A stretch of DNA of 64,000 bases, from contig PBLQ01000001.1 in assembly GCA_002721815.1 (NCBI GenBank), forward strand, positions 1 to 64,000, in the 5' to 3' direction. This document shows positions 23,617 through 57,245 of the stretch, in pieces (position 1 is the stretch's first letter; each line of letters begins with the position of its first letter). The translations under genes and the position numbers were made by a program. This stretch comes from Myxococcales bacterium (GTDB lineage: Bacteria; Myxococcota; UBA727; GCA-2721815). The notes beneath the pieces were generated by a model. It ran no database searches, was not told where the DNA came from, and worked only from the letters and a program-made list of their open reading frames with translations.

Positions 23617-24693
23617 ATGTCTGTAAGGGAAAATCTGGTTGCTGTGATCATGGCCGGTGGCATTGGAAGCCGTTTTTGGCCCGCTTCTACCCCCGAAAAC
23701 CCCAAGCAATTTTTACAATTCTTCGGAGATCGGTCACTTTTACAAAAAAGTTACGATCGTATAGCCGCATTAATCCCTCCGGAGCGGGTTCTCATTCTGA
23801 CCCAAGAGCGCTTTCGTGGGCTTGTGAAGAGCCAACTTCCTGATATTCCTAATGAAAATATTATTGGAGAGCCCATTCGACGCGATACCGCAGCACCGGT
23901 GGCACTGAGCGCATTGTGGACCCATGAAAAGTGGGGCTCTCAGGTTTTGGCGGTTTTGACCTCTGATCATCTCATCGGAACCGATGAAGATTTTCAAAAA
24001 GCCCTCATCTCAGCGGGCGAAGCAGCCATGCAATCCGATTGTCTGTACACCTTTGGCATTCCGCCCAGTTATCCGGCCACGGGCTATGGCTACCTGGAGA
24101 CGGGTGAACCGCTGCAAGAAAACGAAGGCATCGCGCATTTCGGACTAGAACGATTCGTAGAAAAGCCCGATCTCGCCACCGCAAAAAGATATTGCGAGGC
24201 CGGACACTTTCTGTGGAACAGTGGCATGTTTGTGTGGCGCAATGATGTGATTTTGAAAGAATTCGAAAAGCAACTGCCCGATCATCTCAAACACCTCCAA
24301 TCCGCTTGCGCCGGCGGCAAAACCCTAACGCCCGAATCGCTGCTTGAAAGCTTCGAACCCTTACAAAGTATTTCAGTGGACTTTGGCATCATGGAAAACG
24401 CCGCCGATGTTCGCTGCGTTAAAGCCAACTTCTCTTGGAGTGATGTGGGTGGGTGGCGCGCCCTTTTCGATCACATGGCCGCTGACACTGACGGGAATAT
24501 CGCTCAACAAGCCCAAACCTTTGCCCACGAAGCCACCGGCAACCTGGTGTTCTCCTCCCATGACGGGGAAGAGGTGGGACTGCTTGGGGTAGACAACCTC
24601 GTGGTGGTACGATCGCAAGGTCAAACGCTCATCGCCCACAAAGACAAAGTCGAAGACCTCAAAAAACTATTGGCCAAACGGGATACCCAGTGA
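23617..24693 (+). CDS. manC: Mannose-1-phosphate guanylyltransferase
   Basis: The enzyme has 358 residues and makes GDP-mannose from GTP and mannose-1-phosphate, supplying polysaccharide or glycan synthesis. It has the nucleotidyltransferase signature AGGIGSRFWP...PKQFL, the EPIRRDTAAPVALSA region and the sugar-phosphate-binding VEKP. It lacks the C-terminal phosphomannose isomerase domain, so it is the short monofunctional form. ATG at 23617 follows AGGGAGG by 4-5 bases. It is first in a five-gene run; its TGA overlaps the next start (GTGA), so an Mla-like transporter is translationally coupled to it. The 134-base upstream region, shared with the divergent lipoprotein, has no clear promoter. 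Confidence 0.93.
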   Translation: MSVRENLVAVIMAGGIGSRFWPASTPENPKQFLQFFGDRSLLQKSYDRIAALIPPERVLILTQERFRGLVKSQLPDIPNENIIGEPIRRDTAAPVALSALWTHEKWGSQVLAVLTSDHLIGTDEDFQKALISAGEAAMQSDCLYTFGIPPSYPATGYGYLETGEPLQENEGIAHFGLERFVEKPDLATAKRYCEAGHFLWNSGMFVWRNDVILKEFEKQLPDHLKHLQSACAGGKTLTPESLLESFEPLQSISVDFGIMENAADVRCVKANFSWSDVGGWRALFDHMAADTDGNIAQQAQTFAHEATGNLVFSSHDGEEVGLLGVDNLVVVRSQGQTLIAHKDKVEDLKKLLAKRDTQ

Positions 24694-25382
24694 CCGGTAT
24701 TCCAACCATTGGACTTCATTTGCAACAGTTTGAAGTTCGTGGCCGCAGCGACTTTCAGCTGGGCCCTCTAACGGCAGAAATTGTACCGGGCAGTTTCGTG
24801 GGTGTTTTGGGCGCCGCCCAATCGGGCAAATCATTGTTGCTCGCCAGTCTGTGCGGATTGGTTGCCCATAAAGGAAAAAAAGAATTCTCAAACGCCCAAT
24901 CACAAGATGGCGTGAACATACAACTCATCTTTCAAGAAGGCGGCCTGCTCGAAGAACAAACCGTACAAGCCAATCTCAGTTTGGCACAGGGTGCTTTTGG
25001 CGCTGTGGATCTTCAAATCCAAAATGCCCTACTCTCACGCTTGGGCATTGAGCAGGCAAACTCACTCCTCCCCCGTGAATTAAGTGGCGGTATGCGAAAA
25101 CGTGTTTTGCTGGCCAGAGCTCTACTGTGTGAGCCGCAAATATTGCTCATTGACAATGTGGCCGCAGGCTTGGATCCGAACAACGCACAAAAACTTTTGG
25201 AGTTGGTTTTGGAATTCAAACGGGAACAGGGGTTCACCTTATTGTGGGTGACTCACGAGCCCGGGCCCATGTTGTCCCATTTGGATCAAGTCATGATCTT
25301 ACAGGAAGGCCAGCTTTTGTTCATGGGCCACCAAGACACGCTCCCAGAAACGGAACACTTTCAATCCTACCTCCAGGTCTAA
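24690..25382 (+). CDS. MlaF-like ABC ATPase with degenerate Walker B
   Basis: The 230-residue nucleotide-binding protein has Walker A GAAQSGKS (41-48), a Q-loop FQEGG (Gln82), the signature LSGGMRKR (131-138), Walker B ILLIDN (151-156) and the H-loop His189. The residue after the Walker B aspartate is Asn156, where active ABC ATPases have the catalytic glutamate; the codon is AAT at 25155-25157. The LSGGMRKR form is the one seen in MlaF. The start is GTG 24690, overlapping the manC stop. It lies next to two MlaE-like permeases and a second ATPase with the opposite defect, so it is probably the non-hydrolysing half of a heterodimer. Confidence 0.88.
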   Translation: MTGIPTIGLHLQQFEVRGRSDFQLGPLTAEIVPGSFVGVLGAAQSGKSLLLASLCGLVAHKGKKEFSNAQSQDGVNIQLIFQEGGLLEEQTVQANLSLAQGAFGAVDLQIQNALLSRLGIEQANSLLPRELSGGMRKRVLLARALLCEPQILLIDNVAAGLDPNNAQKLLELVLEFKREQGFTLLWVTHEPGPMLSHLDQVMILQEGQLLFMGHQDTLPETEHFQSYLQV

Positions 25383-25386
25383 GCCC

Positions 25387-26151
25387 ATGAACACCATATT
25401 TCACAACAAACTCGTGGCCATCGGCAAACACACCCTTAACCCGGTGGGGTTTGTGGCCTACGCGTTGTTGTGCCTTTTACGTGGCCAAGTGGACCTGAGA
25501 GAATTCATCCGACACCTCTATCGATTTATTTACGGTGTTTTCCCTATCGTTCTCATGGCCTGCATTGGCGTGGGTGGCGTTGTGGCCCTTCAAGGCCTTG
25601 AATATGTGGCGCGCTACAATGCATCCGAGGTCTTTGGATGGGCTGCTGGTCTTTCAGCGTTTCGCGATGTGGCGCCCCTTTTACTCAGTTTTGTTTTGGC
25701 CAATGCGGTGGGTGCACGAAACACCGCAGAGTTGTTGGCTTGGCGAGCGCAGGCCGGTGAAGTGAGCTTTAAAGCTTTAGGCATTCACACTTTTCGCATC
25801 ATCGAAGGGCCGCGTCTGTTTGCGCTGACCGTTGCCGCATTGCTTTTGTACCCCATCGCGGTGGTGGCCACGTTGGTTTCCGCAATTGTTTTTGCAGGCA
25901 TGGTGGGCGACCAAAATGTCTATGCCAGCTTTTATAGCATTTACCACTATGTCCCCTTGGCAATTTTAGGGGCAGGCTTGCTGCGGCTGGGCTGCTTTGG
26001 TTTTCTGATCGGCGTGTTTTCGGTTTATTTTGCGCGCACCCAACGTTTTGATCCATTGAGCGTCGGCAAAGGTGTGGGCCGTGCGGCCGCCATCAGCACC
26101 CTTCTGATTTGCATTCTCAACTTTGTGCTCACCGCCCTGGAGACCCTATGA
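25387..26151 (+). CDS. MlaE-like ABC permease, first subunit
   Basis: The 254-residue inner-membrane protein has about five or six hydrophobic helices. It aligns by pattern with MlaE: the segment NAVGARNTAELLAWRAQAGE followed by KALGIHTFRIIEGPRLFAL corresponds to the MlaE GRSGsgmAtELGtMrvteQidAL...PR region, but with key residues changed. MlaE forms a homodimer that, with MlaF and an MCE protein, moves phospholipids. It starts at ATG 25387, four bases after the ATPase stop, and overlaps the next gene by ATGA. The presence of a second, different MlaE-like gene suggests a heterodimer here. The cargo is unknown. Confidence 0.85.
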   Translation: MNTIFHNKLVAIGKHTLNPVGFVAYALLCLLRGQVDLREFIRHLYRFIYGVFPIVLMACIGVGGVVALQGLEYVARYNASEVFGWAAGLSAFRDVAPLLLSFVLANAVGARNTAELLAWRAQAGEVSFKALGIHTFRIIEGPRLFALTVAALLLYPIAVVATLVSAIVFAGMVGDQNVYASFYSIYHYVPLAILGAGLLRLGCFGFLIGVFSVYFARTQRFDPLSVGKGVGRAAAISTLLICILNFVLTALETL

Positions 26152-26879
26152 GTTCCCTTGCCCAAAAAGTTTGGCGCACCGCCCTGCGTGCACAACTCAA
26201 TCCAAAGTTATTGGGCGAAAAATCTTTTTGGCAACGGCTCAGCCAAGTGGGCAACGGCGCCTTTTGGATTGTGGCCGGTGTAACTTTTTTTGCCGGTGCG
26301 GCCTTTTGCCAACAAGCAGCGTTTCAGGCGCAAGCCCTTTTAGGAGATCAAAGCTTCATTGGGCCCGAATATATTGTGCTCGCCTTTAAATCTTTTGGCC
26401 CCTTGGTGGTGGCCTTGGCACTGATGTCTAAAGTCGGCTCGGCCTTTGCAGCAGAACTTGCACTCATGCGACAAAATCAAAGCTTGGACGCCTTGGTCCT
26501 GTACAAACAAAACCCCGGCGCCCGCTGGTGTGCCCCAATGGGGTTGGCCCTCACTTTCGGTGCAGTGGGGCTGGGTCTGCTGTCCACCGTGGTATGGGAA
26601 CTGGCAGGCATGGTGGTCATGTATGGCTTTCACGGAATTATGCCGCAAAGCTTTTTTCGCCCCGATGCCATTTCTCGTGAACTCGTGCTGCTGTGCTGCA
26701 TCAAAAACGCCGCGTTTGGGCAATCCATTTATTGGGTTTCATTGCGGTCGGGCTTGTTCGTGGGCCATGGAACCACCGCCACCGGGTTTTCCCCCACCCA
26801 AGCCATGGTTCGTGGGGTGTTACTCATCTTATTTGTGAACCTGTTCATCGATTTTGTTTGGCTGCGGTTGGGGTTTTAA
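26148..26879 (+). CDS. MlaE-like ABC permease, second subunit
   Basis: The 243-residue membrane protein is similar in layout to the preceding permease but clearly not a recent copy. The segment SKVGSAFAAELALMRQNQSLDAL is close to the MlaE consensus and closer to it than the first subunit. Hydrophobic helices follow (LALTFGAVGLGLLSTVVWELAG and the C-terminal LLILFVNLFIDFVWL). ATG at 26148 overlaps the upstream TGA, and the stop is directly followed by the ATG of the second ATPase (TAAATG), so all subunits should be made together. It is probably the partner of the first permease in one transporter. Confidence 0.85.
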   Translation: MSSLAQKVWRTALRAQLNPKLLGEKSFWQRLSQVGNGAFWIVAGVTFFAGAAFCQQAAFQAQALLGDQSFIGPEYIVLAFKSFGPLVVALALMSKVGSAFAAELALMRQNQSLDALVLYKQNPGARWCAPMGLALTFGAVGLGLLSTVVWELAGMVVMYGFHGIMPQSFFRPDAISRELVLLCCIKNAAFGQSIYWVSLRSGLFVGHGTTATGFSPTQAMVRGVLLILFVNLFIDFVWLRLGF

Positions 26880-27596
26880 ATGCGTTGGGTGATTGAACAA
26901 CTGCACTGCCGGGTGAATGATCGCACGCTTCTCGATAACTTTAATGCCGAGTTTGATTTCAGTGCGCCCATCGCCATCGTAGGTGCATCCGGTGCGGGCA
27001 AAAGCATCAGCATCCAATGTGCATTGGGTTTGTTTCCTTTTCAAAAAGGGCGCATTACGTTTCACGCCCACGGTGAAGCCATCGAACTTTCTCCCGATAG
27101 TCCCGCCCATCTGTGGACCCAACTCCGAAAAGACATCATGTTTGTGCCGCAGTTCCCCAATCTGTTCGACGACTTCAACGTCCAAAACAACCTGCTCTTT
27201 CCTTTCCGCAAACGGACGCAAGCGAAAGCTGTACTGGAGAGTGAGCATTTTAAATTACGCGTTGAAGAGCTCGGCCTGCAGCCCCTGCTACAGCAGTTCC
27301 CAACATCGTTGACCCCTGGACAACGCAAACGAGTGGCCATCGGGCGCGCGCTTTTACAAAACCCCAAAGTGTTGATGCTCGATGAGCCTACTACCGATTT
27401 GGACCCCGCGGCCCGACAGCAAATGACCGAACTATTGGCTGATCTACAAAATAAAGGACAAGGTATGGGACTCATCACGCACGATCAACAACTGCTGAAC
27501 GCCATGACCCTCAAAATTAAAGTCATTCAAATGGGGCAAATTATATGGGAGGGTTCAGTTAACGATTATAAAATACGGGAATCCTCACTTTGCTGA
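26880..27596 (+). CDS. MlaF-like ABC ATPase with degenerate signature motif
   Basis: The 238-residue ATPase has Walker A GASGAGKS (35-42), Q-loop Gln91, Walker B VLMLDEP with catalytic Glu169, and H-loop His201. Its signature motif reads LTPGQRKR (144-151) instead of LSGGQ. It therefore keeps hydrolysis residues but has an altered signature, the reverse of the first ATPase. Paired with that subunit, its Walker motifs would face the normal LSGGM, forming one active site, while the other site would be doubly degenerate. The start is ATG 26880, immediately after the permease stop. It is convergent with the DUF1552 gene, 20 bases away; no terminator hairpin is visible. Confidence 0.88.
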   Translation: MRWVIEQLHCRVNDRTLLDNFNAEFDFSAPIAIVGASGAGKSISIQCALGLFPFQKGRITFHAHGEAIELSPDSPAHLWTQLRKDIMFVPQFPNLFDDFNVQNNLLFPFRKRTQAKAVLESEHFKLRVEELGLQPLLQQFPTSLTPGQRKRVAIGRALLQNPKVLMLDEPTTDLDPAARQQMTELLADLQNKGQGMGLITHDQQLLNAMTLKIKVIQMGQIIWEGSVNDYKIRESSLC

Positions 27597-42817: not shown

Positions 42818-43843
42818 ATGGATGAAGAAAAAACATATTGGCGGGGGGGCTTTTTTGTTTGTTTATCGCTCTTGGCAGCCACAGCATTGTGGTGGATCAC
42901 CGGGCCAGGCCAAATGGGAGACGGTACGCCATTGCGCATTCAATACAATTTTACAGGCCCCATAAAAGCCGGTGCATTGGCCCGCTTGTCCGGCCTTTCT
43001 GTGGGGCGGGTTCAAGACGTTCAATTTGTGGGACAAGCCGATGCCCCCGAAGGGCCCATGGTGGAACTCACCGCCACCTTACAACCCGATGTTTTCAAAA
43101 TCCTTTCTGACGAAACCCGTTTTTATGTAACCACCATGGGTGTTCTAGGGGAGTACTACCTCGACATTGAGCCTCGAGAAGGTAAACGCGCCTTGAAGCC
43201 CGGCGAAAAGGTTCGCGGCGTGGATCTGCCAAGGTCCGATTTGCTTTTGGCAAGAGCAGCAGGTTTTATGGAGGTGCTCGATGTCCTTTTGGTAGACAAC
43301 CGTAAAGAACTCATCGCTGCCATCGAACAAATGACCCAACTCGTTCAACAAGGCCATCAACTTTTAGAAGACCCCGACGGCAATCAACTGATGGACAATC
43401 TCAATCAGGTTTTATTGAGAAGCCGCACGGTGATCGATGCGTTGGCCGTCGCACTTGGGGATGGAAAATCAACTCAAGAAACCCTGAAGTCTCTGCCCGT
43501 CGTCTTAAAGAAAGTACGTGAATGGGAGAAAAATAAAGGGGAGGAATTCGGGACGATCATGTCGCAAACGACCCAAATGCTCGATCATGCAGACGAACTT
43601 TGGAAAGCCTTTGAAAAATCCAACCTAACAATGCCACAAGGCGCGGTGGCGTTGGCACAACAAACCGATCAAACCCTTCAACGCCTCGAAAGTGTTGCTC
43701 GCCGAGCAGAAACACTTTTGAAGGCCGTAGAGAATAAAGAAGGAGCGGCAGGGCAGCTTTGGCATGATGCCGACTTTGCCAAGGATTTAAAAGCGCTGAT
43801 CACAGTGCTGCGGCACAACCCCAAAAGCCTGCTGTTTAAATAA
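42818..43843 (+). CDS. Orphan MCE (MlaD-like) protein
   Basis: The 341-residue protein has an N-terminal membrane helix (GGFFVCLSLLAATALWWI) and one MCE domain (about 40-125). The signature region is IQYNFTGPIKAGALARLSGL followed by SVGRVQDVQF, and the conserved GVLGEYYLDIEP closes it. The rest is long helices, probably coiled. MCE proteins bind lipids in the periplasm and work with MlaE/MlaF. No permease or ATPase is adjacent. ATG 42818 starts right before the helix; a poorer longer frame exists. It is convergent with the DinG-like gene (8-base overlap). It could serve the heteromeric transporter at 24690-27596, but that is speculation. Confidence 0.85.
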   Translation: MDEEKTYWRGGFFVCLSLLAATALWWITGPGQMGDGTPLRIQYNFTGPIKAGALARLSGLSVGRVQDVQFVGQADAPEGPMVELTATLQPDVFKILSDETRFYVTTMGVLGEYYLDIEPREGKRALKPGEKVRGVDLPRSDLLLARAAGFMEVLDVLLVDNRKELIAAIEQMTQLVQQGHQLLEDPDGNQLMDNLNQVLLRSRTVIDALAVALGDGKSTQETLKSLPVVLKKVREWEKNKGEEFGTIMSQTTQMLDHADELWKAFEKSNLTMPQGAVALAQQTDQTLQRLESVARRAETLLKAVENKEGAAGQLWHDADFAKDLKALITVLRHNPKSLLFK

Positions 43844-47380: not shown

Positions 47381-47397
47381 AAATGAGAGGTATGCAT

Positions 47398-49521
47398 ATG
47401 AAGCGGTCCTTGTGGATCATGGTGTTGGCCTTCACCCTGGGTGTGACCTCAGGCTGTGCTTTACTCCAAAGTTACCGCCCATCCAGCCGCATGGTCACCG
47501 TTAACGGGGTAGAAATTTCAGCCGAACAGGCCGGACACGACCTGTTCAAAGAAGCCATGGACTCCCGCCAAGGAAAAAACGATGAAACGGCCAAACACCT
47601 CCTGGCCCAAGTCATCAAAAAATATCATGATACCACCGCCGCCCATTTGGCATACGTGGAGCTGGGCCGACTCTTTTTGGACCACCAACAACCAGAGAAA
47701 GCACAAAGAATTCTTGAGGTTTTCTTGGTCAAGCACCCATACACCCCCGCTGCAGATGAAGCGCGCTACCTGTTGGCACTCTCCCAAATGGCGCAAGGAA
47801 ACACAGATTCTGCGGCCCCGCAGCTCGACACCATTGTTGAAAAAGCAGGTGGGGATGCTGAGAGCAAAAGCAAAGCGCTCGAACTGGCCGAAGAACTGGA
47901 AGAAAAATCTCAAAATGCACAAGCCGTCCGTTACTACGCGCAGGCCCACCGCTTCAGCGATGACCTACAGGAACAAAAAACAATCGCCCAGAAGTTTGAA
48001 AGCCTGCTTGAAGATAACGTGGGTTTTACCGACGTGCGAAGACTCTACGAAACAGAACGCTCCCCGCCCGTTTTGCGTGAACTTCTCTCCATGAAAATGG
48101 CCAAAATCCATCTTCATTTGCAAGATCAAATACTCGCCCAACAAGTCATGGACCAATACATGCGCGAGTTCCCCCAAGGGCGTTTTGCTTCAGACATCAA
48201 AAGCATTCAGAAAGGACTGGCCAAGCAAGGAAAGGTCAAAGTGGGGCGCATTGGCTTGTTGTTACCCATGTCCGGCTCATTGAAAGCGTATGGTGAACGA
48301 ATTCTGACGGCCGTACAAATGGGTCTGGGTATGGACACCGTGCCTTTTGACGGGAAAAAACTCATTCAAACCAAAGGCGCCATCACCCTCATTACCCTCA
48401 ACACCCGAGGCGACGCCCAAAGGGCATTGGCCGCCATGGATCAGCTGGTGAACAAATACCAAGTCATGGGGGTGATTGGCGATCCGGCACCTGACACCGC
48501 TTTGCCCGTGGCCTTACGTGCGCAGGCCTATCAAGTCCCCCTCATTTCCTTGTCCCACCGTTCTAATCTGCCATTGCTGGGGCCGTATGTATTCCGTTTG
48601 GGCCTCACCCCTGAGAAACAAGCACAAAGCTTGGCCAACATTTCTATGGATATCCTTGGGCATCGTCGCTTTGCCATTGTCTACCCAAGGCACCAGTACG
48701 GATTGAACATGATGCATGCCTTTTGGAACGCTGTTCAATCCCGTCAAGGTGAGGTCACAGCCATCGAAGATTATGGCTTCGGGCAAACCACATTCACCTC
48801 CGAAGCAAAAAAACTGGTGGGGCGCTATTTTATTGAAAGCCGAAAAGAATATCTGGACTGCCGAAAAGCGGCTTTCGAAGTGGAAGACAGCTACCGGCGC
48901 AAAAAGGCGTTCGAACGGTGCAAAGATCAAGTGCCACCCATCGTTGATTTCGATGCCGTGCTCATCCCCGATCAAGCCCGAACGGTCTCATATGTTGTAC
49001 CCGCATTGGTGGCCGAAGATGTGCCCGTTTCACAAGATCGTCGCACCATGAACATTTATCGAAAAACCACCGGCGATGTGGCAGCACGACCCATTCAGCT
49101 CTTGGGTGGCTCCACCTGGAACAACGATAAGTTAGCGCAACGGCTCAGTAAAAATGGTGAGGGCGCCCTTTTTGTTGATGGGTTTTCCAGCACCGATGCA
49201 CGACCGATGGTCCAAAAATTTGTAGAGACATTCAAAGGCCACGTGGGCTCCGCGCCCTCTCGCTTGGATGCACAAGCCTATGATACCGCGCGCCTCTTTC
49301 ATCATGTTTTGGAGGGCAAAGGGAACACGGGTGTGACCAATCGCGCCACCTTGCAACAGGCCATCTTGACCGTCCAAGGCCTTGAAGGCGTTACGGGTGA
49401 CATTGTTTTTGACGCCAATGGCGAATCACAGAACCCGTTGCTGCTCTTTCAATTCGCCAAAGGTGTCATTCAGCCCACCAGTCCTGAAACATTGGTAACG
49501 CCAGAAGAAGGGGGTGGCTGA
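47398..49521 (+). CDS. LpoA-like lipoprotein, TPR plus periplasmic-binding-protein fold
   Basis: The 707-residue lipoprotein has a signal ending VTSGC (Cys20). The N-terminal half is TPR-like (AHLAYVELGRLFLDHQQPEKA and similar). The C-terminal half begins VKVGRIGLLLPMSGSLKAYGERI and has the type I periplasmic-binding fold of amino-acid receptors and of LpoA. LpoA is the outer-membrane activator of penicillin-binding protein 1A in E. coli. ATG 47398 is preferred over ATGs at 47383 and 47392 because AGAGG is 7 bases upstream. Its stop overlaps the next start (TGATG), so it is coupled to a FliH/SctL-like gene, an unusual neighbour for LpoA. An alternative is a binding-protein-like sensor. Confidence 0.85.
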   Translation: MKRSLWIMVLAFTLGVTSGCALLQSYRPSSRMVTVNGVEISAEQAGHDLFKEAMDSRQGKNDETAKHLLAQVIKKYHDTTAAHLAYVELGRLFLDHQQPEKAQRILEVFLVKHPYTPAADEARYLLALSQMAQGNTDSAAPQLDTIVEKAGGDAESKSKALELAEELEEKSQNAQAVRYYAQAHRFSDDLQEQKTIAQKFESLLEDNVGFTDVRRLYETERSPPVLRELLSMKMAKIHLHLQDQILAQQVMDQYMREFPQGRFASDIKSIQKGLAKQGKVKVGRIGLLLPMSGSLKAYGERILTAVQMGLGMDTVPFDGKKLIQTKGAITLITLNTRGDAQRALAAMDQLVNKYQVMGVIGDPAPDTALPVALRAQAYQVPLISLSHRSNLPLLGPYVFRLGLTPEKQAQSLANISMDILGHRRFAIVYPRHQYGLNMMHAFWNAVQSRQGEVTAIEDYGFGQTTFTSEAKKLVGRYFIESRKEYLDCRKAAFEVEDSYRRKKAFERCKDQVPPIVDFDAVLIPDQARTVSYVVPALVAEDVPVSQDRRTMNIYRKTTGDVAARPIQLLGGSTWNNDKLAQRLSKNGEGALFVDGFSSTDARPMVQKFVETFKGHVGSAPSRLDAQAYDTARLFHHVLEGKGNTGVTNRATLQQAILTVQGLEGVTGDIVFDANGESQNPLLLFQFAKGVIQPTSPETLVTPEEGGG

Positions 49522-50081
49522 TGTCAGAAGACAAACCCGGACCTGTACATGAAGAGGCTGCGTTTATCTTGGATAAAGCACGTGGTTTGGTGCGCGACAT
49601 GTTGGCCGAAGCCGATCATGAAGTGGCCGCACAGATCGAAGCCGCATCCCAAAAGGGGCAAAATGAGGGCCGCGCTGCGCTCGACGACAAACAAGCACTG
49701 GTGCAAGATTTAGAAAACCGCATTCACGCTGAACTGTCAGAACAAGGCGTATCGGCAGCACTCTCGCTTTCGAAAGCTTTGCTGCTCACTGAACAAACAG
49801 AAAACAAAGAATTTGTCGTAGAGTTGGTGGCCAATGCGCTTGCCAGTGTGAAGGACGCCGATCGGGTATGGTTACGCGTCAACCCTTTAGATGCCCCCAC
49901 GCTCAAAACCCATAAAGGTCGGTTGATCAACGTCTTGGGCCGGGCCAGCGATATCGACATTCGGGTAGACCGCTCTGTGAAACAAGGCGGCGTGCTTATT
50001 CAAACAGGAGCTGGTGCGGTGGATGCCCAACTCGACACCCAACTGGAAGAGATCGGTCGCATCTTAGGCGTGGACCCATAG
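49521..50081 (+). CDS. FliH/SctL-like stator protein, first copy
   Basis: The 186-residue cytoplasmic protein has a helical, coiled-coil-like N-terminal half rich in Ala, Glu and Lys. A C-terminal domain follows with VWLRVNPLDAPTLKT, DIDIRVDRSVKQGGVLIQTG and GAVDAQLDTQLEEIGRIL. This is the FliH/HrpE/YscL pattern, seen also in V-type ATPase E subunits. The family is the peripheral stalk holding the export ATPase of flagella and type III secretion. No export ATPase or other secretion gene is in the window. ATG 49521 overlaps the preceding stop. Confidence 0.75.
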   Translation: MSEDKPGPVHEEAAFILDKARGLVRDMLAEADHEVAAQIEAASQKGQNEGRAALDDKQALVQDLENRIHAELSEQGVSAALSLSKALLLTEQTENKEFVVELVANALASVKDADRVWLRVNPLDAPTLKTHKGRLINVLGRASDIDIRVDRSVKQGGVLIQTGAGAVDAQLDTQLEEIGRILGVDP

Positions 50082-50090
50082 GATTGCCAC

Positions 50091-50894
50091 ATGGCGAAAG
50101 TAATTAAACGCGGCGGCGGTACGCAAAAGCCCTCTAGCTCCTCTCCGGCACCAAGACAAACTGCCAAGCGCACGGGCAAGGTGATCGATCGCCAGGTTTA
50201 TCAAGCTCAACAAGATGCCCAGGAAATCATCACGGCCGGAGAAAACGAAAAAAGACAACGGGAAGAGGCTGGTGTGCAATCAGCACAACAAGCCTATGAA
50301 GAACACTTCGTCCAGGCCCAAGCCAGCACCGAGGCTGAACTCGCCGGCAAACTAATTCAAATCTTTCAACAAAGGCGGTTATTGGTGGCCACCGCCCTCG
50401 AAGATGTACAAACCCTGAGCGTGGAAATTATCCACAAAATTTTGGGTGCCCCCCTTCAACTGGGACAAGCCGTCATCACACAGCAAACGCAAGAGGAAGA
50501 GGCGACACTGCTGGGCCGTCGCACCCTGTCCGTTGGTATCCCGGCCGAGGTCCATCAAAAATTGAAGTCGTTGGCCCCTGACTTTTTGGACGCCTTGACC
50601 CAGTGCCCTGATATCGAGCTCTCAGATACGGAAGGGCAAACCTCTTTGGGATGGGTCGCAGTGAACCAACTGCGTTTTGCCATAGATGCCCGTGATTTGC
50701 TTTCTCAGCTCGGCGAATCTTTGGGGATGGTGCTGCCCGATTTAAACCCTCCGGAGCCTGCATCCAGTACCGCCCCAGCACTTTTGGAAGATGAGGGCGA
50801 AGACAGCGTGGTCGAAAAAACCATGGCCATAAGCCTTGAAGAACTCAAATCCATGGCTGAGGCGGCTAAAAAGCGGAAAAAGAGCGAAGATTGA
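50091..50894 (+). CDS. FliH/SctL-like protein, second copy
   Basis: The 267-residue protein has a basic, Ser/Pro-rich N-terminus, a long charged helix (YQAQQDAQEIITAGENEKRQ onward) and a C-terminal domain with LSVEIIHKILGAPLQ, LSVGIPAEVHQKLKS and WVAVNQLRFAIDARDLLSQL. The last part mirrors the FliH/SctL end. It then has an extra acidic tail ending in AAKKRKKSED. It is weaker as a family member than its neighbour, with moderate confidence. ATG 50091 follows AGGA, which overlaps the previous stop codon. Two such proteins in tandem could form the asymmetric pair that FliH makes as a dimer. The tail is not found in standard FliH. Confidence 0.65.
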   Translation: MAKVIKRGGGTQKPSSSSPAPRQTAKRTGKVIDRQVYQAQQDAQEIITAGENEKRQREEAGVQSAQQAYEEHFVQAQASTEAELAGKLIQIFQQRRLLVATALEDVQTLSVEIIHKILGAPLQLGQAVITQQTQEEEATLLGRRTLSVGIPAEVHQKLKSLAPDFLDALTQCPDIELSDTEGQTSLGWVAVNQLRFAIDARDLLSQLGESLGMVLPDLNPPEPASSTAPALLEDEGEDSVVEKTMAISLEELKSMAEAAKKRKKSED

Positions 50895-50956
50895 AAGGGT
50901 TGCGTCGTTCAAATTAGTCCTTTATGCTCGCGCGGTTATCTTTACAGGATGGTTAA

Positions 50957-51697
50957 ATGACCCACTCAAAGCGGCCCAAACACATCGCAATTATCATGGA
51001 CGGCAATGGTCGATGGGCAAAGGCCCAAAGCGAGCCGCGTCTTTATGGGCACCGTGCGGGTGCCAAAGTGGTGCGTGAAATAACCACCCACGCGGCCAAA
51101 TCCGGCATTGCATACCTCACGCTTTATGCCTTTTCCCATGAGAACTGGAAACGTCCCACTGAAGAAGTGGAAGGCTTAATGAAGCTGTTGTGGGAATACC
51201 TCAAGCAAGAAAAAGCAACGCTTTTAAAAAACCGCATCCAACTTTCCAGCATCGGTAACGCCCAACGTCTGCCGCTCACCGTTCGCACCTTGTTGGCTTC
51301 AGTACAAAAGGCCACCCAAGGACTGAACGGAATGCGCCTGACCTTGGCCCTCTCCTACGGCGGTCAAGATGAGATCACCCGAGCCATGCAAAAGATTGGG
51401 CAAAAGATTGCAGCGGGCCATATTCAGCCTGAAGATATCAATCCGCAAATGATCGAGCAGAATTTGGATACTCACGATATGCCACCACCCGATTTAATTA
51501 TTCGGACCAGTGGTGAACAGCGCCTGTCGAATTTTCTTCCCTGGCAAAGTGCCTACTCCGAGTTCTATTTCACCGATGTCCCTTGGCCGGCCTTTACCGT
51601 GGACGAATTTGAAAAAGCCATCGCCACCTATAACCTGCGCGATCGACGCTACGGCCAAGCAAGTGCTTCTCACATCCAATTGGTTCAAGGTCAGTAA
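50957..51697 (+). CDS. uppS: Undecaprenyl diphosphate synthase
   Basis: This is a 246-residue cis-prenyltransferase that makes the C55 lipid carrier used for peptidoglycan and O-antigen. It has the catalytic IIMDGNGRW (Asp15), GHRAGAK, YAFSHENWKRP, LSYGGQDEI, and the C-terminal PDLIIRTSGEQRLSNFLPWQ with SEFYFTDVPWP. All substrate-binding residues of the family appear present and the length is typical. ATG 50957 follows AGGA by 7 bases. It is a 3-base gap from cdsA, the usual neighbour. Confidence 0.97.
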   Translation: MTHSKRPKHIAIIMDGNGRWAKAQSEPRLYGHRAGAKVVREITTHAAKSGIAYLTLYAFSHENWKRPTEEVEGLMKLLWEYLKQEKATLLKNRIQLSSIGNAQRLPLTVRTLLASVQKATQGLNGMRLTLALSYGGQDEITRAMQKIGQKIAAGHIQPEDINPQMIEQNLDTHDMPPPDLIIRTSGEQRLSNFLPWQSAYSEFYFTDVPWPAFTVDEFEKAIATYNLRDRRYGQASASHIQLVQGQ

Positions 51698-51700
51698 ACA

Positions 51701-52555
51701 GTGAGTAATCTGACCCTAAGGATTCTCAGCGCGCTGGTGTTGGCCCCCTTGGTTCTGCTGTGCTTACATGCCGGTGGCCTCTACACCCAAATATTGCTTA
51801 CTGTGGTCACAGCTGCCGCCATGTGGGAATGGGGATGTATGTTTCTCCCCAAAGATGTGGCAACCCGCATCTTTGTTGTAGTCCTTACCTCGCTGTGCGC
51901 CTTTGTTTTAATGGGGACAAACTCTTTTCTGTTGGGCTTCCTTTGTGTGTTTTGGACTTTCATGCTGCTCTTCTTGTCTTTCCTCTTGCCCGTAGGACCC
52001 AAGTGGGAAGGGTTTGACAGCATCACCCGAGCGGCATTCGGATTGTTTTACGCGGTCATTCCCATTGCGTCTTTCGCATGGCTTCGTGCGAAAGGGGACG
52101 TGGACTTCCCTCAATCTGGAGGCGACTGGGTTTATTTGGGGTTGCTGTGCACCTGGGTCGACGATTCATTCGCGTATTTTGCTGGACGTGCCTTTGGGAA
52201 GCACCCCTTCTTTCCATCCGTTAGCCCCAAGAAAACTTGGGAAGGTTTTTATGGAGGAATGCTTGGTGCGGTCCTCATTCCTTTGGCCGTTTTGTACTGG
52301 CTCATTCCAGCGACGGGTTGGCCCTTTTTTCAGGGTCTCATCTACGTGGACATCCTGTGGGTCGCTGTACCCATCTCAGTACTCGGCCCCTTAGGTGACC
52401 TTCTCGAAAGCAAAATTAAGCGCGAGTTCTCAGTCAAAGATTCTGGCAACCTCATTCCCGGTCATGGCGGGATGCTCGACCGTGCGGATGCCCTGCTGCT
52501 CACCTTGCCATGGGTCCTCACTTACGCTGAAGTGATTCGCCCTCTGCTGAAATAA
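51701..52555 (+). CDS. cdsA: Phosphatidate cytidylyltransferase
   Basis: This is a 284-residue, multi-helix inner-membrane enzyme making CDP-diacylglycerol from phosphatidate and CTP, the branch point of phospholipid synthesis. The family signature is visible near the C-terminus (SVKDSGNLIPGHGGMLDRAD), with the conserved Asp pair, and the KKTWEGFYGG loop precedes it. The start is GTG 51701, 3 bases after the uppS stop. The gene is convergent with the small lipoprotein gene at 52571 (15 bases). Further isoprenoid or outer-membrane genes often found after cdsA are absent. Confidence 0.96.
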   Translation: MSNLTLRILSALVLAPLVLLCLHAGGLYTQILLTVVTAAAMWEWGCMFLPKDVATRIFVVVLTSLCAFVLMGTNSFLLGFLCVFWTFMLLFLSFLLPVGPKWEGFDSITRAAFGLFYAVIPIASFAWLRAKGDVDFPQSGGDWVYLGLLCTWVDDSFAYFAGRAFGKHPFFPSVSPKKTWEGFYGGMLGAVLIPLAVLYWLIPATGWPFFQGLIYVDILWVAVPISVLGPLGDLLESKIKREFSVKDSGNLIPGHGGMLDRADALLLTLPWVLTYAEVIRPLLK

Positions 52556-53037: not shown

Positions 53038-53868
53038 CTATTGGAAGGGAGAAGGTTGTTGCAAGACGTCTTGCCAAAGGATGATCAGCTCTACTCTGGG
53101 TCCTCTTTGACTTTGTTCGTCGATTTCAAAATAGGTTTGTTGCACCAGCTCTGCGGCGACCCCCGCCTTCAACATGGCTGCGGCGATGGGCTTTACCCGT
53201 TTTTGCGCTAAACCCATTCGCCTGTCTTTATCCGCCGCCTCGTCTTTTTTAACATAAACGTTGAGATGAACTTTGGACACGTGCTGCACTTGACCCAACA
53301 AGCTATCGCTAATTTCTTCTAATAAATTTTGGTCTTTATCTTTCAGCTGGTGTGAGCGATCTTTAAAACTGAACGCCTCCGAACGAAACACACGAACCCC
53401 GTCAATGGTGTTGGCATAAATTTGCGCGCCTTCAGGGCACCCGTCTTGATCAAACTCACCATCAATATCTTCTCGCTGTAAGGGGCAAGAATCCAAGTGA
53501 TCGGCAATCAGGTCGCCATCGGCATCCTCCATGGGGCAGCCGTCCGGGACCAGCCCTGCACGACGCGGACATGCATCTTGGTAATCCACCACCCGATCGC
53601 CATCGGCATCGGGATCTGGGCACCCATCCAGATCATACACATTATTGGGTGTTTCTGGAAACATCGGGCAAAGATCGGCTGCATCATCAATACCGTCGCC
53701 ATCTTGATCTTGACCCGTGCATTTCACTGGCACAGTTGTGAAACCTTCCATGCGCCTGGCCCGCTGGCACATGGAGTCCACGGGCACCAACACATTGTCC
53801 CGATGTTGGCAGGCCATTTCAAAAAACAGGCCCAAGAGCAAAACGATAGTTAAACGATAGGTGGGCAT
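53038..53868 (-). CDS. OmpA-like lipoprotein with TSP3 repeats
   Basis: The 276-residue lipoprotein has a signal ending FEMAC (Cys20). Residues about 50-140 hold four or five calcium-binding TSP3-type repeats (QDQDGDGIDDAADLCP, PDADGDRVVDYQDACP). The C-terminal ~110 residues resemble an OmpA peptidoglycan-binding domain, with DKDRRMGLAQKRVKPIAAAM near the position of the usual NxxLSxxRA motif. It is probably an outer-membrane lipoprotein that contacts the wall. It lies 6 bases after the MCE gene in the Mla operon, suggesting a link between lipid transport and wall anchoring. Confidence 0.82.
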   Translation of the reverse strand: MPTYRLTIVLLLGLFFEMACQHRDNVLVPVDSMCQRARRMEGFTTVPVKCTGQDQDGDGIDDAADLCPMFPETPNNVYDLDGCPDPDADGDRVVDYQDACPRRAGLVPDGCPMEDADGDLIADHLDSCPLQREDIDGEFDQDGCPEGAQIYANTIDGVRVFRSEAFSFKDRSHQLKDKDQNLLEEISDSLLGQVQHVSKVHLNVYVKKDEAADKDRRMGLAQKRVKPIAAAMLKAGVAAELVQQTYFEIDEQSQRGPRVELIILWQDVLQQPSPFQ

Positions 53869-53874
53869 GCGGGC

Positions 53875-55518
53875 TTAAAAGGAAGGAATGAACGGTAAAA
53901 CGTTACTGAGATCAGTGTCTTGAAACATAATGCCGGCACCGATGAAATAGTCAAAACCGTAACGATCCACCGCTGGGTTGTATCCTTGGTTCAGCACGTC
54001 ATCCACACCGGCTGTGACGTATACACCGGGATAAGGCTCAGCCCGCAACAAAGTCCGCCAACGGGGTAAGGCACTGATCATGGAACCTTCGGGCTCATTC
54101 GCCGGTCCGCCGAAATCAAAAACATCCGACCGTAATTCCAAGCGGCGCTCCCAAAAAACCAGGTTGGCACCCAAGCCTCCGGAGTTCTCAATCAAACCCG
54201 CACGCAGCTCCAAAAACCCCAAGAATTCTTTGGCAAACATGGCAGTGAAACGAACACTGTTATCGTTCTCATAAACGGTGGTCCGCGCCCCTTCTTCATC
54301 AACGGCTGTTCGTACCAAACGCTCTTTGCCCCCCCAATCGTTGACCATTTCAATGAAATAATATTTCCCTGGCCGTGGTCGTATGCGCAACCCCAAATTG
54401 CCACGAGCTTTGGAACGTTGAAAATTATACCAAGACCCCAAATCCACGTGGGTTTCTAATGAGGTGAGCATTTTCACCGTTTCCGACGCGCTTTCAACCG
54501 CATCGGTGAGTTTCTCCGCCATTTCCTCATCGGCCAGGAGCTTTCCAACTGTCCCCTCGCCGCGGTCTACTTCTTCAAGGATATTCGCAACCGCTTTCAT
54601 GGATCGATTTAAATCTTGAACCGTGGTTCCTAACTCAGCCAGCGTTTTGGGCCCTTCTCCTTCTTCGCCTTCACCTTGAAACTGCGCGGATAAATCTTTG
54701 AGCGCCCCAGACACTTCAGAGAGGTTTTCTGAAATTTCACGAACCGCCTCGACCGCAGTAACAATATCACCCGGCTTCCCTGACGCAGAGTCGCCAAACA
54801 TCATCTGTACTTCAGATGAAATGTCGCGAAGGTTGGTGACCACATCTTTAATGGCACGATTGTTGGCAACCACCATCTCATCCACGTGGCCCACTGCTGA
54901 ATCAATGGTGCGTGCCACTTTGCGAATCTCGTTCACCATCAATTCGTAGAGCTCATCGAGGGGCGGGTTTTCTCCATCACCTTTCATGAACTTGTTCAAT
55001 GAATCGGTAATGCCGCGAACGTCCGATGTGATACCACCAATATCACTGTCTACTTTCTTGGTGATGCTTTTGATGTCTTGAGCGATGAGTTCAATCTCAT
55101 CTAAAATGGCGTCCGTACCGGTTTTGGATTGAACGTTCTTTATCCATCCCCCCGGTGACAACACGGGTTTGTCTTTGTTTCCCGGCGCCAGATACAATAC
55201 GTTGGCTCCCATAAGGCCCGCGGTTTCTTTGCTCAACTGTGCGTCTTGATACAAGGTCAATGCCTTGGTGATGCGCATGGTGACTTTGGCCCGCAAGTTG
55301 TCCAACTCAATGTTTTCAATCTCACCCACGGGCATCCCCGAAAGTTGCAATTTACTTTTGGCGTTTAATCCGGATGCATCGTCCAGGTATGCATAGTAAA
55401 CATCGCTGTTTTGGGTGTTGAGCTCGCTTTTTCGTGATGACATCACGAAGTAAAACGAAACGGCAAAACCCAGCAACACCACCAAGCCGGTTAACAATGC
55501 ATTGAAACGATCATCCAC
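53875..55518 (-). CDS. mlaD: MlaD-type MCE protein with C-terminal beta-rich extension
   Basis: The 547-residue protein has an N-terminal membrane helix (FNALLTGLVVLLGFAVSFYFVM) and one MCE domain (about 38-115, with GLNAKSKLQLSGMPVGEIENIEL). A very long helical region follows (about 140-350, coiled-coil-like). The last ~190 residues are short beta strands (NLGLRIRPRPGKYYFIEMVND...) and the chain ends in Phe. That pattern resembles the C-terminal part of an outer-membrane barrel, so one chain could span from the inner membrane to the outer membrane. E. coli MlaD is far shorter (~180 residues). It is the lipid-binding partner of the adjacent mlaE and mlaF. Confidence 0.88.
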   Translation of the reverse strand: MDDRFNALLTGLVVLLGFAVSFYFVMSSRKSELNTQNSDVYYAYLDDASGLNAKSKLQLSGMPVGEIENIELDNLRAKVTMRITKALTLYQDAQLSKETAGLMGANVLYLAPGNKDKPVLSPGGWIKNVQSKTGTDAILDEIELIAQDIKSITKKVDSDIGGITSDVRGITDSLNKFMKGDGENPPLDELYELMVNEIRKVARTIDSAVGHVDEMVVANNRAIKDVVTNLRDISSEVQMMFGDSASGKPGDIVTAVEAVREISENLSEVSGALKDLSAQFQGEGEEGEGPKTLAELGTTVQDLNRSMKAVANILEEVDRGEGTVGKLLADEEMAEKLTDAVESASETVKMLTSLETHVDLGSWYNFQRSKARGNLGLRIRPRPGKYYFIEMVNDWGGKERLVRTAVDEEGARTTVYENDNSVRFTAMFAKEFLGFLELRAGLIENSGGLGANLVFWERRLELRSDVFDFGGPANEPEGSMISALPRWRTLLRAEPYPGVYVTAGVDDVLNQGYNPAVDRYGFDYFIGAGIMFQDTDLSNVLPFIPSF

Positions 55519-55590
55519 TGAGCTAAAAACTCCTTAAAATTGATTACTTGCTTGTATCTGCTCCAAGCATCAGGCGCAAATAAATGCCGG

Positions 55591-56382
55591 TCACTGGTTC
55601 TTCTGACGCCATTTCTCCAAAAACTGATGGACGTAGGGGTGCGGGCAGTTCAAGATGTCTTCTCGCTTGCCACGCACCACGATTTCCCCTTTGTAAATAA
55701 ACAGCAATTGGTCGGCAATGTGAAAAGCCGAAGCAATATCGTGGGAAATTACCACGCTGGTCACGCCCAATTCGGACTTGGCATGCAAGATGAGCTGGTC
55801 CACTTGGTCGGTGGTGATGGGGTCTAAACCGGTGGTGGGTTCATCATAGAGCAACAATTTAGGCTCTAGGGCCACGGCACGGGCCAGTGCCACCCGCTTG
55901 CGCATACCACCCGACAGCTCGGAGGGATATTTGGAATTCACTTCCGCCGGGTTGAGCGAAAAGAGTTTGAGTTTGTGTTCCACCTTTGCGCGAATGTCTT
56001 CTTCACTGACTTTAAGGTGTTCCCGCATGGGAAAAGCCACGTTGTCGAAAATATTCATGGAGTCGAAAAGAGCACCCTCTTGAAAGACCTTGCCAATTTT
56101 ACGGCGATAGTTTTGCAAATGTTTGTCACGCATGGGGACCAAATCTTCGCCGTCAACAATGATCTCTCCACTGTCAGGCTTGAGTAAACCCGCCAAATGT
56201 TTGAGCAGTACACTTTTGCCCATACCCGATCCCCCCAAAATCACACACACTGAACCCTGGGGAATTTGTAAGTCGATGCCCTTGAGCACTTGTTGCTGAC
56301 CAAAACTTTTCTTCAGGTCGCGGACCTGGATCAACATGGGCGCCAAATTCTCTTGCGCCACGGTGGCCGTGTTGTCCGTCAT
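55591..56382 (-). CDS. mlaF: Mla-system ABC ATPase
   Basis: The 263-residue ATPase has Walker A GGSGMGKS, Q-loop VFQEGALFDSMNIFDNVAFPM, signature LSGGMRKR, Walker B LLLYDEPTTGLDP with catalytic Glu, and H-loop SHD. It is complete and canonical, unlike the two divergent ATPases at 24690-27596. It drives phospholipid transport with MlaE and MlaD at the inner membrane. Its ATG overlaps the mlaE stop (ATGA), and a 72-base gap separates it from the MCE gene. Confidence 0.95.
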   Translation of the reverse strand: MTDNTATVAQENLAPMLIQVRDLKKSFGQQQVLKGIDLQIPQGSVCVILGGSGMGKSVLLKHLAGLLKPDSGEIIVDGEDLVPMRDKHLQNYRRKIGKVFQEGALFDSMNIFDNVAFPMREHLKVSEEDIRAKVEHKLKLFSLNPAEVNSKYPSELSGGMRKRVALARAVALEPKLLLYDEPTTGLDPITTDQVDQLILHAKSELGVTSVVISHDIASAFHIADQLLFIYKGEIVVRGKREDILNCPHPYVHQFLEKWRQKNQ

Positions 56383-57245
56383 GGCCCCACCTGCGGAAAA
56401 GAATCGAAATAAATATAGCCGTACAAAAAGGGATGTAGCAACTCGGTAATCAGATAGGTGCCCACCAAGATGCTTACCGACGAAATCACAACCGCTTCCG
56501 TCGCTGCCAATCCCACACCACGCGCGCCACCTTTGGCATTAAAACCCTTGTAGCAACTCACCAATGCAATGGTGCCACCAAAAAACACCGCTTTGATAAA
56601 GCCTTCAAAAAAGTCGGGCGGATCCAATCCATACCAAGTTTCCGCTAGAAAAATTCCGGGGTCTACACCTTCACGCGCCACCCCCATAATGTAAGCCCCC
56701 ACAAAGCCGGCCCCGTCAAAAATAGCGCATAGAAATGGCAACATGAGCATCGCCGCCAACACCCGAGGTACCACCAGGTAATGAATGGGGGAAACAGCCA
56801 TCATTTCTAAGGCATCGATCTGTTCGGTCACCCGCATGGTGCCCAACTCGGTGGCCATTCCGGAGCCAGAACGTCCCGCGACCATCATTCCTGTGAGGAC
56901 CGGTGCGAGTTCACGGGCCAATGCCAACATGGTGGCGGGGCCAACCAAAGATTCCGCTCCAAAGCGTCGGAACGCAATGAGTGTTTGCAACCCAAAGACC
57001 AATCCCGTGAAGAACCCGGTAAAAATAACGATAAACAGCGTTCCGAAACCGATTTCACGCATGTGGCGAAAGAACTCTTTGGCCCGGTAAGGGCCTCGAA
57101 ACATCTGGATCAAAGTGGCCCAACCAAACAGCAGCACCCGTCCAAACTCTCGAACGAAGCCGATGGATAAATGACCCACCCCCACCACGGGGGCAAGAAA
57201 CCGCCACAATGACGCGGTCTTTTCTTGGGGGGCTGATTCATTCAT
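56379..57245 (-). CDS. mlaE: Mla-system ABC permease
   Basis: The 288-residue permease has about six membrane helices. The MlaE core is clear: GRSGSGMATELGTMRVTEQI followed by DALEMMAVSPIHYLVVPRVLA. It forms the membrane channel for lipid movement between inner and outer membranes, together with mlaF and the MCE protein downstream. ATG 57245 has only a weak ribosome binding site; alr ends 23 bases upstream, so the Mla genes are probably in one operon with alanine racemase. Confidence 0.95.
   Translation of the reverse strand: MNESAPQEKTASLWRFLAPVVGVGHLSIGFVREFGRVLLFGWATLIQMFRGPYRAKEFFRHMREIGFGTLFIVIFTGFFTGLVFGLQTLIAFRRFGAESLVGPATMLALARELAPVLTGMMVAGRSGSGMATELGTMRVTEQIDALEMMAVSPIHYLVVPRVLAAMLMLPFLCAIFDGAGFVGAYIMGVAREGVDPGIFLAETWYGLDPPDFFEGFIKAVFFGGTIALVSCYKGFNAKGGARGVGLAATEAVVISSVSILVGTYLITELLHPFLYGYIYFDSFPQVGP

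Follow-up and report, generated by a model that had tools for sequence, protein, structure and literature searches.

A Myxococcota Mla/MCE-type gene cluster with two different permeases and two different ATPases, predicted to form one complete ATP site

Why some ABC transporters retain a dead ATP site has long been debated, and the question has been studied mainly in exporters of the TAP and PatAB kind, which are ABCB-type proteins with fused membrane and ATPase domains. The locus described here raises it in another setting: do four neighbouring genes for MlaE-like permeases and MlaF-like ATPases encode a single heteromeric transporter in which only one ATP site is complete? The genes lie in a 64,000-nucleotide stretch of a Myxococcales genome (the window) and are as follows.

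24690–25382, + strand: N1, MlaF-like ATPase, degenerate catalytic side (GTG start, 230 aa; Pfam ABC_tran, 1.1e-18)
25387–26151, + strand: E1, MlaE-family permease, first half of a putative heterodimeric membrane domain (254 aa; PF02405, 5.6e-29)
26148–26879, + strand: E2, MlaE-family permease, putative second half (243 aa; PF02405, 6.2e-31)
26880–27596, + strand: N2, MlaF-like ATPase, intact catalytic side with a degenerate signature (238 aa; ABC_tran, 5.1e-23)

The Pfam assignments confirm the original prediction of two different MlaE-like permeases and two different MlaF-like ATPases. E1 and E2 score 101.7 and 108.1 bits against a PF02405 cut-off of 22.5, which places both in the MlaE/YrbE permease family, and the presence of such permeases and MlaF-like ATPases in one operon is characteristic of MCE-type (Mla/Mce/TGD) transporters. 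The two members of each pair are well separated: N1 and N2 of the window are 23% identical, and BLASTP gave no significant full-length match between E1 and E2. Searches of PDB sequences with N1 and N2 returned general ABC ATPases only. The genes had been described as adjacent and overlapping; they are adjacent, but only E1 and E2 overlap (by 4 nt, ATGA), with a gap of 4 nt between N1 and E1 and with E2 and N2 abutting. Promoter and terminator scans gave nothing beyond chance.

Both ATPases of the window have a Walker A motif, a Q-loop Gln and an H-loop His. In N1 the motifs are Walker A GAAQSGKS (residues 41–48), LSGGM (131–135), LLIDN (152–156) and the H-loop WVTHE (186–190); in N2 they are GASGAGKS (35–42), LTPGQ (144–148), LMLDE (165–169) and LITHD (198–202). 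These positions bear out the earlier reading that N1 carries Asn156 where a Walker B Glu is expected, alongside a normal LSGGM signature, and that N2 combines Glu169 with the altered signature LTPGQ. Since N1 of the window retains the H-loop His, only the Glu and the signature of its partner are lost in this genome. In the trees the longest branches belong to the two window ATPases, making them the most divergent members.

The distribution of the cluster was assessed with E1. The comparison set contains no second genome of the GTDB family to which the window belongs; in the same class, E1 is found in four genomes of another family at 38–41% identity. Of the 195 genomes of the phylum, 99 contain a protein that matches E1 at E <= 1e-12, though a few of the weakest matches (for example in G010) are ordinary MlaE proteins; by profile score the E1-type proteins (about 200–350 bits) are largely separate from ordinary MlaE, which reaches about 190 bits. 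A scan of an 84,980-species collection gave 80 loci, nearly all from genomes named as Myxococcota or deltaproteobacterial MAGs and including the genera Myxococcus, Corallococcus, Pyxidicoccus and Archangium; its patterns were built from a narrow E1 alignment of Myxococcota sequences, which makes it a weak test for absence elsewhere. One record, L152, is named Comamonas sp. KCTC 72670 and has an operon about 88–95% identical to that of Myxococcus sp. CA023, probably through a wrong name or contamination of the record.

Genomes from across the Myxococcota, Myxococcus among them, have the gene order N1-E1-E2-N2. Among the 64 loci with all four genes, the genes share a strand in 63 and all gaps are shorter than 150 nt in 55. 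The four-gene order, which had been proposed as something to seek in related genomes, is thus found there, and the ATPase pair co-occurs.

The gene neighbourhood adds a fifth component. Flanking frames of the relatives were compared all-against-all on 22 loci, and in most relatives the gene directly downstream of N2 encodes an MCE/MlaD protein. No MCE gene adjoins the cluster in the window genome; the closest window gene to the operon-encoded proteins is a lone gene 15 kb away rather than the MCE gene of an ordinary Mla-type set.

42818–43843, + strand: likely MCE/MlaD partner (341 aa; PF02470 above cut-off), ortholog of the MCE proteins encoded next to N2 in relatives

This protein matches the operon MCE of L046 at 206 bits, versus 34 bits for the next MCE protein of its own genome. 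Its predicted model has an N-terminal membrane helix, an MCE β-domain mostly at pLDDT 75–90 and a helical tail of about 200 residues at low confidence, and the best solved matches in a fold search were Mce1 needle proteins (8fed_B) and MlaD (5uw8). An MCE-domain protein is thus associated with the cluster, adjacent in most relatives and as an unlinked ortholog in the window, where the gene has apparently split off from the operon. The gene at 42818–43843 likely belongs to the N1-E1-E2-N2 system, in the window genome by orthology only, and the span first proposed for the system (24690–27596) leaves it out. Ten relatives (L086, L093, L095, L098, L101, L105, L107, L108, L118 and L148) have a tandem pair of MCE genes near the cluster, in several cases on the opposite strand.

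The upstream side of the cluster bears on the substrate. In the window, manC (23617–24693) overlaps N1 by 4 nt, which makes co-transcription likely in this genome, and the transporter had been described as coupled to manC. The neighbouring gene hints at an exporter of glycolipid or polysaccharide linked to GDP-mannose. However, a search of 86 loci gave no manC homologue in their flanks; the upstream genes of relatives vary (UbiB-type kinase, TPR and MopE proteins), and the conserved partner is the MCE protein instead. A GDP-mannose-linked exporter is very unlikely given these flanks, and the coupling to manC does not extend to the relatives: the link is local and says little about the substrate.

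To place the window motifs in context, 74 N1 and 69 N2 proteins were surveyed, with both proteins readable at 61 paired loci. N1 invariably has the Walker A GK[ST] and an [S/A]GG signature (74/74 each), with the D-loop LDP in all. Its catalytic position is Asp in 40 proteins, Glu in 31, Gly in two and Asn in one, the window protein, and the H-loop His is kept in nine of the 74; the N1 proteins of relatives accordingly range from those with both Glu and His to those with one or neither. N2 shows the opposite pattern. The Walker B Glu and the H-loop His are present in 69/69 and LSGG in 0/69, the signature being replaced by LGDG, LSDG, LGPG, VGPG, LTPG, LSPS and other variants. Canonical motifs in both proteins of close relatives, which would have pointed to error or decay, were not found: in addition to the missing LSGG of N2, N1 lacks the Glu and/or the His at 59 of the 61 paired loci. 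The N1/N2 split thus occurs phylum-wide in Myxococcota.

In ABC dimers each ATP is sandwiched by one subunit's Walker motifs and its partner's signature (PMC9541285; PMC7367683). Given this shared geometry, all of the losses fall on the site formed by the catalytic residues of N1 and the signature of N2, and the other site is complete. An N1/N2 heterodimer would carry exactly one complete ATP site at 61/61 paired loci; if the proteins are heterodimeric, every one of these loci has the arrangement of a degenerate-site ABC protein, with Glu or His lost on one side and the signature on the other, in one composite site. The split is one-sided at every paired locus and its polarity is never reversed, while 11 of 11 ordinary Mla-type ATPases of the same phylum in the comparison set have consensus residues at these motifs, so the pattern goes beyond chance.

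Our preferred reading, to which we give a probability of roughly 85% from sequence and model evidence, is that the cluster encodes a heterotetrameric Mla/MCE lipid transporter in which one ATP site is consensus and the other degenerate, with an MCE protein as periplasmic conduit. The motif logic favours the heterodimer because only the catalytic residues of N2 together with the signature of N1 make a complete site, and the prediction of an Mla-derived heterodimeric transporter with one active ATP site is to this extent supported. Weighing on the other side are the retained H-loop His of the window N1, the long branches of both window ATPases, the unlinked MCE gene of the window and the part that shared species history plays in the N1/N2 distance correlation. 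In such a machine the membrane domain would consist of E1 and E2 and the motor of N1 and N2, while the protein encoded at 42818–43843, as a ring carrying a helical tail, would provide the periplasmic conduit. The Walker A, Walker B Glu and H-loop His of N2 would face the LSGGM of N1 in the sole fully equipped hydrolysing site; the Walker A and impaired catalytic residues of N1 would face the altered signature of N2 in a degenerate site that may bind ATP but turn it over slowly, if at all. Each cycle would then consume one ATP and leave the second to clamp the dimer, as in TAP, PatAB and TM287/288, and the stroke would have a fixed left–right asymmetry to suit the two unlike permease halves. 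The assembly of the heterodimer, hydrolysis at a single site, a lipid substrate and the ring or tunnel form of the MCE protein are all inferred here.

The same genes could instead encode a pair of independent homomeric transporters with interleaved genes, one combining N1 with a first permease and one combining N2 with the second. Each ATPase gene does adjoin a permease gene, and the canonical Mla system is homomeric (PMC7790496), but an N2 homodimer would be without a signature in both of its sites and so have no complete site at any of the 61 loci, and an N1 homodimer would have one at only two (L055 and L088), the Glu and/or His being absent from the rest. All four genes are, moreover, kept together. 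We regard the homomeric pair as highly improbable.

The evolutionary record of the pair bears on the role of N1 in the proposed heterodimer. N1 and N2 form clades with support values of 92 and 100, and their branching orders closely mirror one another; E1 and E2 (97 and 91) are likewise mirrored. The N1 and N2 distances correlate at 0.91 (permutation p 0.0002), a value to which shared species history contributes. These trees fit one old duplication each of the ATPase and the permease, followed by apparent inheritance as a set. At least four changes of the Glu state and four of the His state are required on the N1 tree; there are none in N2. The loss of Glu or His in most genomes, together with the somewhat faster evolution of N1 than of N2, would suit an N1 that is a decaying or regulatory pseudo-ATPase, with an N2 homodimer doing all of the work. 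This is hardly plausible, as Walker A and the [S/A]GG signature are retained throughout the N1 proteins and N2, without LSGG everywhere, needs the signature of N1. The dN/dS of N1 lies between 0.03 and 0.19 in eleven species pairs (a twelfth pair, which has no synonymous differences, yielded no ratio), and N1 is, on these ratios, under purifying selection. The AF2 model of N1 is also an intact, well folded ATPase domain (pLDDT 88.8), and its solved matches in a fold search are ATPase domains including MceG (8fed_H) and MlaF (6xgy_A). Where a single genome represents its family, one might suspect an error of sequencing or assembly, or motif variation by chance in that genome, but the same split in more than 60 independent assemblies leaves a negligible chance of this, and error was rejected.

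The heterotetramer would be one of several related systems in its own genome, which has seven MlaE-family and five MCE-domain genes. An ordinary set in the window (53875–57245, − strand) comprises one MlaE, one consensus ATPase and one MCE protein, and is followed by an OmpA-family protein (53038–53868). A second set, on contig C37 (L049:3591–6852), has two MlaE genes, one ATPase and one MCE gene. It resembles the N1-E1-E2-N2 system in combining two different MlaE proteins with an MCE protein in one cluster, and differs in that its single ATPase is consensus (LSGGQ, DEP and THD). Further genomes of the order contain sets related to it (L030, L040 and L048).

Among characterized systems, mycobacterial Mce1 is similar in its heterodimeric MlaE-family permeases (YrbE1A/YrbE1B) and in the long helical needle of its MCE proteins, whose chains are the best matches to the window MCE model; it differs in having an MceG homodimer (PMC9882608), in contrast to the two diverged ATPases with complementary losses found here. 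The E. coli complex MlaFEDB, the founding member of type VIII, shares the MlaE and MlaF families, an MCE partner and the LSGGM signature typical of Mla- and TGD-like ATPases (PMC7367683). It has the composition MlaF2E2D6B2 with identical copies of MlaE and MlaF (PMC7790496), each a homodimer (PMC10094684), whereas the present cluster has two diverged ATPases and two diverged permeases; no MlaB gene was seen among the genes adjacent to the cluster. The statement that MlaE and MlaF are normally homodimers consequently stands for the ATPase, as in MlaF and MceG, and is too broad for the permease, in view of YrbE1A/YrbE1B and the contig C37 set. Veillonella MlaEFD, a minimal Mla set with one MlaE and one MlaF gene, is comparable in its helical-extended MlaD, which has been proposed to act as a transenvelope bridge (PMC10665443).

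The closest parallels to the motif split lie outside the MCE systems. In PatAB, TmrAB, TM287/288 and TAP, the Walker B Glu and/or the H-loop His is lost in one ATPase domain and the signature in the other, at the same composite site; in PatAB these are a Walker B D and an H-loop Q in PatA and SAGQ in PatB (PMC9541285). Unlike the fused ABCB-type exporters such as TAP and PatAB, this system has MlaE-type permeases, separate ATPase genes and an MCE partner. A literature search, with subscription papers and preprints outside its scope, turned up no Mla or MCE system whose two ATPases differ, in agreement with the earlier view that no example had been described. The new part is the presence of two different ATPases in an MCE system.

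We consider it likely that the cluster represents a distinct, anciently duplicated class of Myxococcota MCE transporter, heterodimeric in permease and motor and with one working ATP site. The degenerate-site design of ABC proteins would in that event have arisen independently in the MlaE (type VIII) fold, and separate lineages would each have eroded the same site. The cluster would then offer an independent case of dead-site asymmetry in a different membrane fold, and the window genome a series of one permease with one ATPase, two with one and two with two. The presence of the cluster in Myxococcus, a genus with a genetically tractable model, makes the asymmetry directly testable, and the system bears on lipid movement between membranes in myxobacteria.

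Two further arrangements were observed in this genome. On contig C3 (L003:1411–2806 and L050:2182–3580), directly downstream of two Opp-type permease genes, an MlaE gene is followed by an ATPase with a degraded Walker B (YYILAEP) and signature (LTAQK); this pair is possibly another unusual ABC arrangement. At 47383–52555 (+ strand) of the window, genes for TPR/LppC-like and FliH-domain proteins adjoin those for an undecaprenyl diphosphate synthase and a CdsA-type cytidylyltransferase, an odd setting for a FliH-domain gene.
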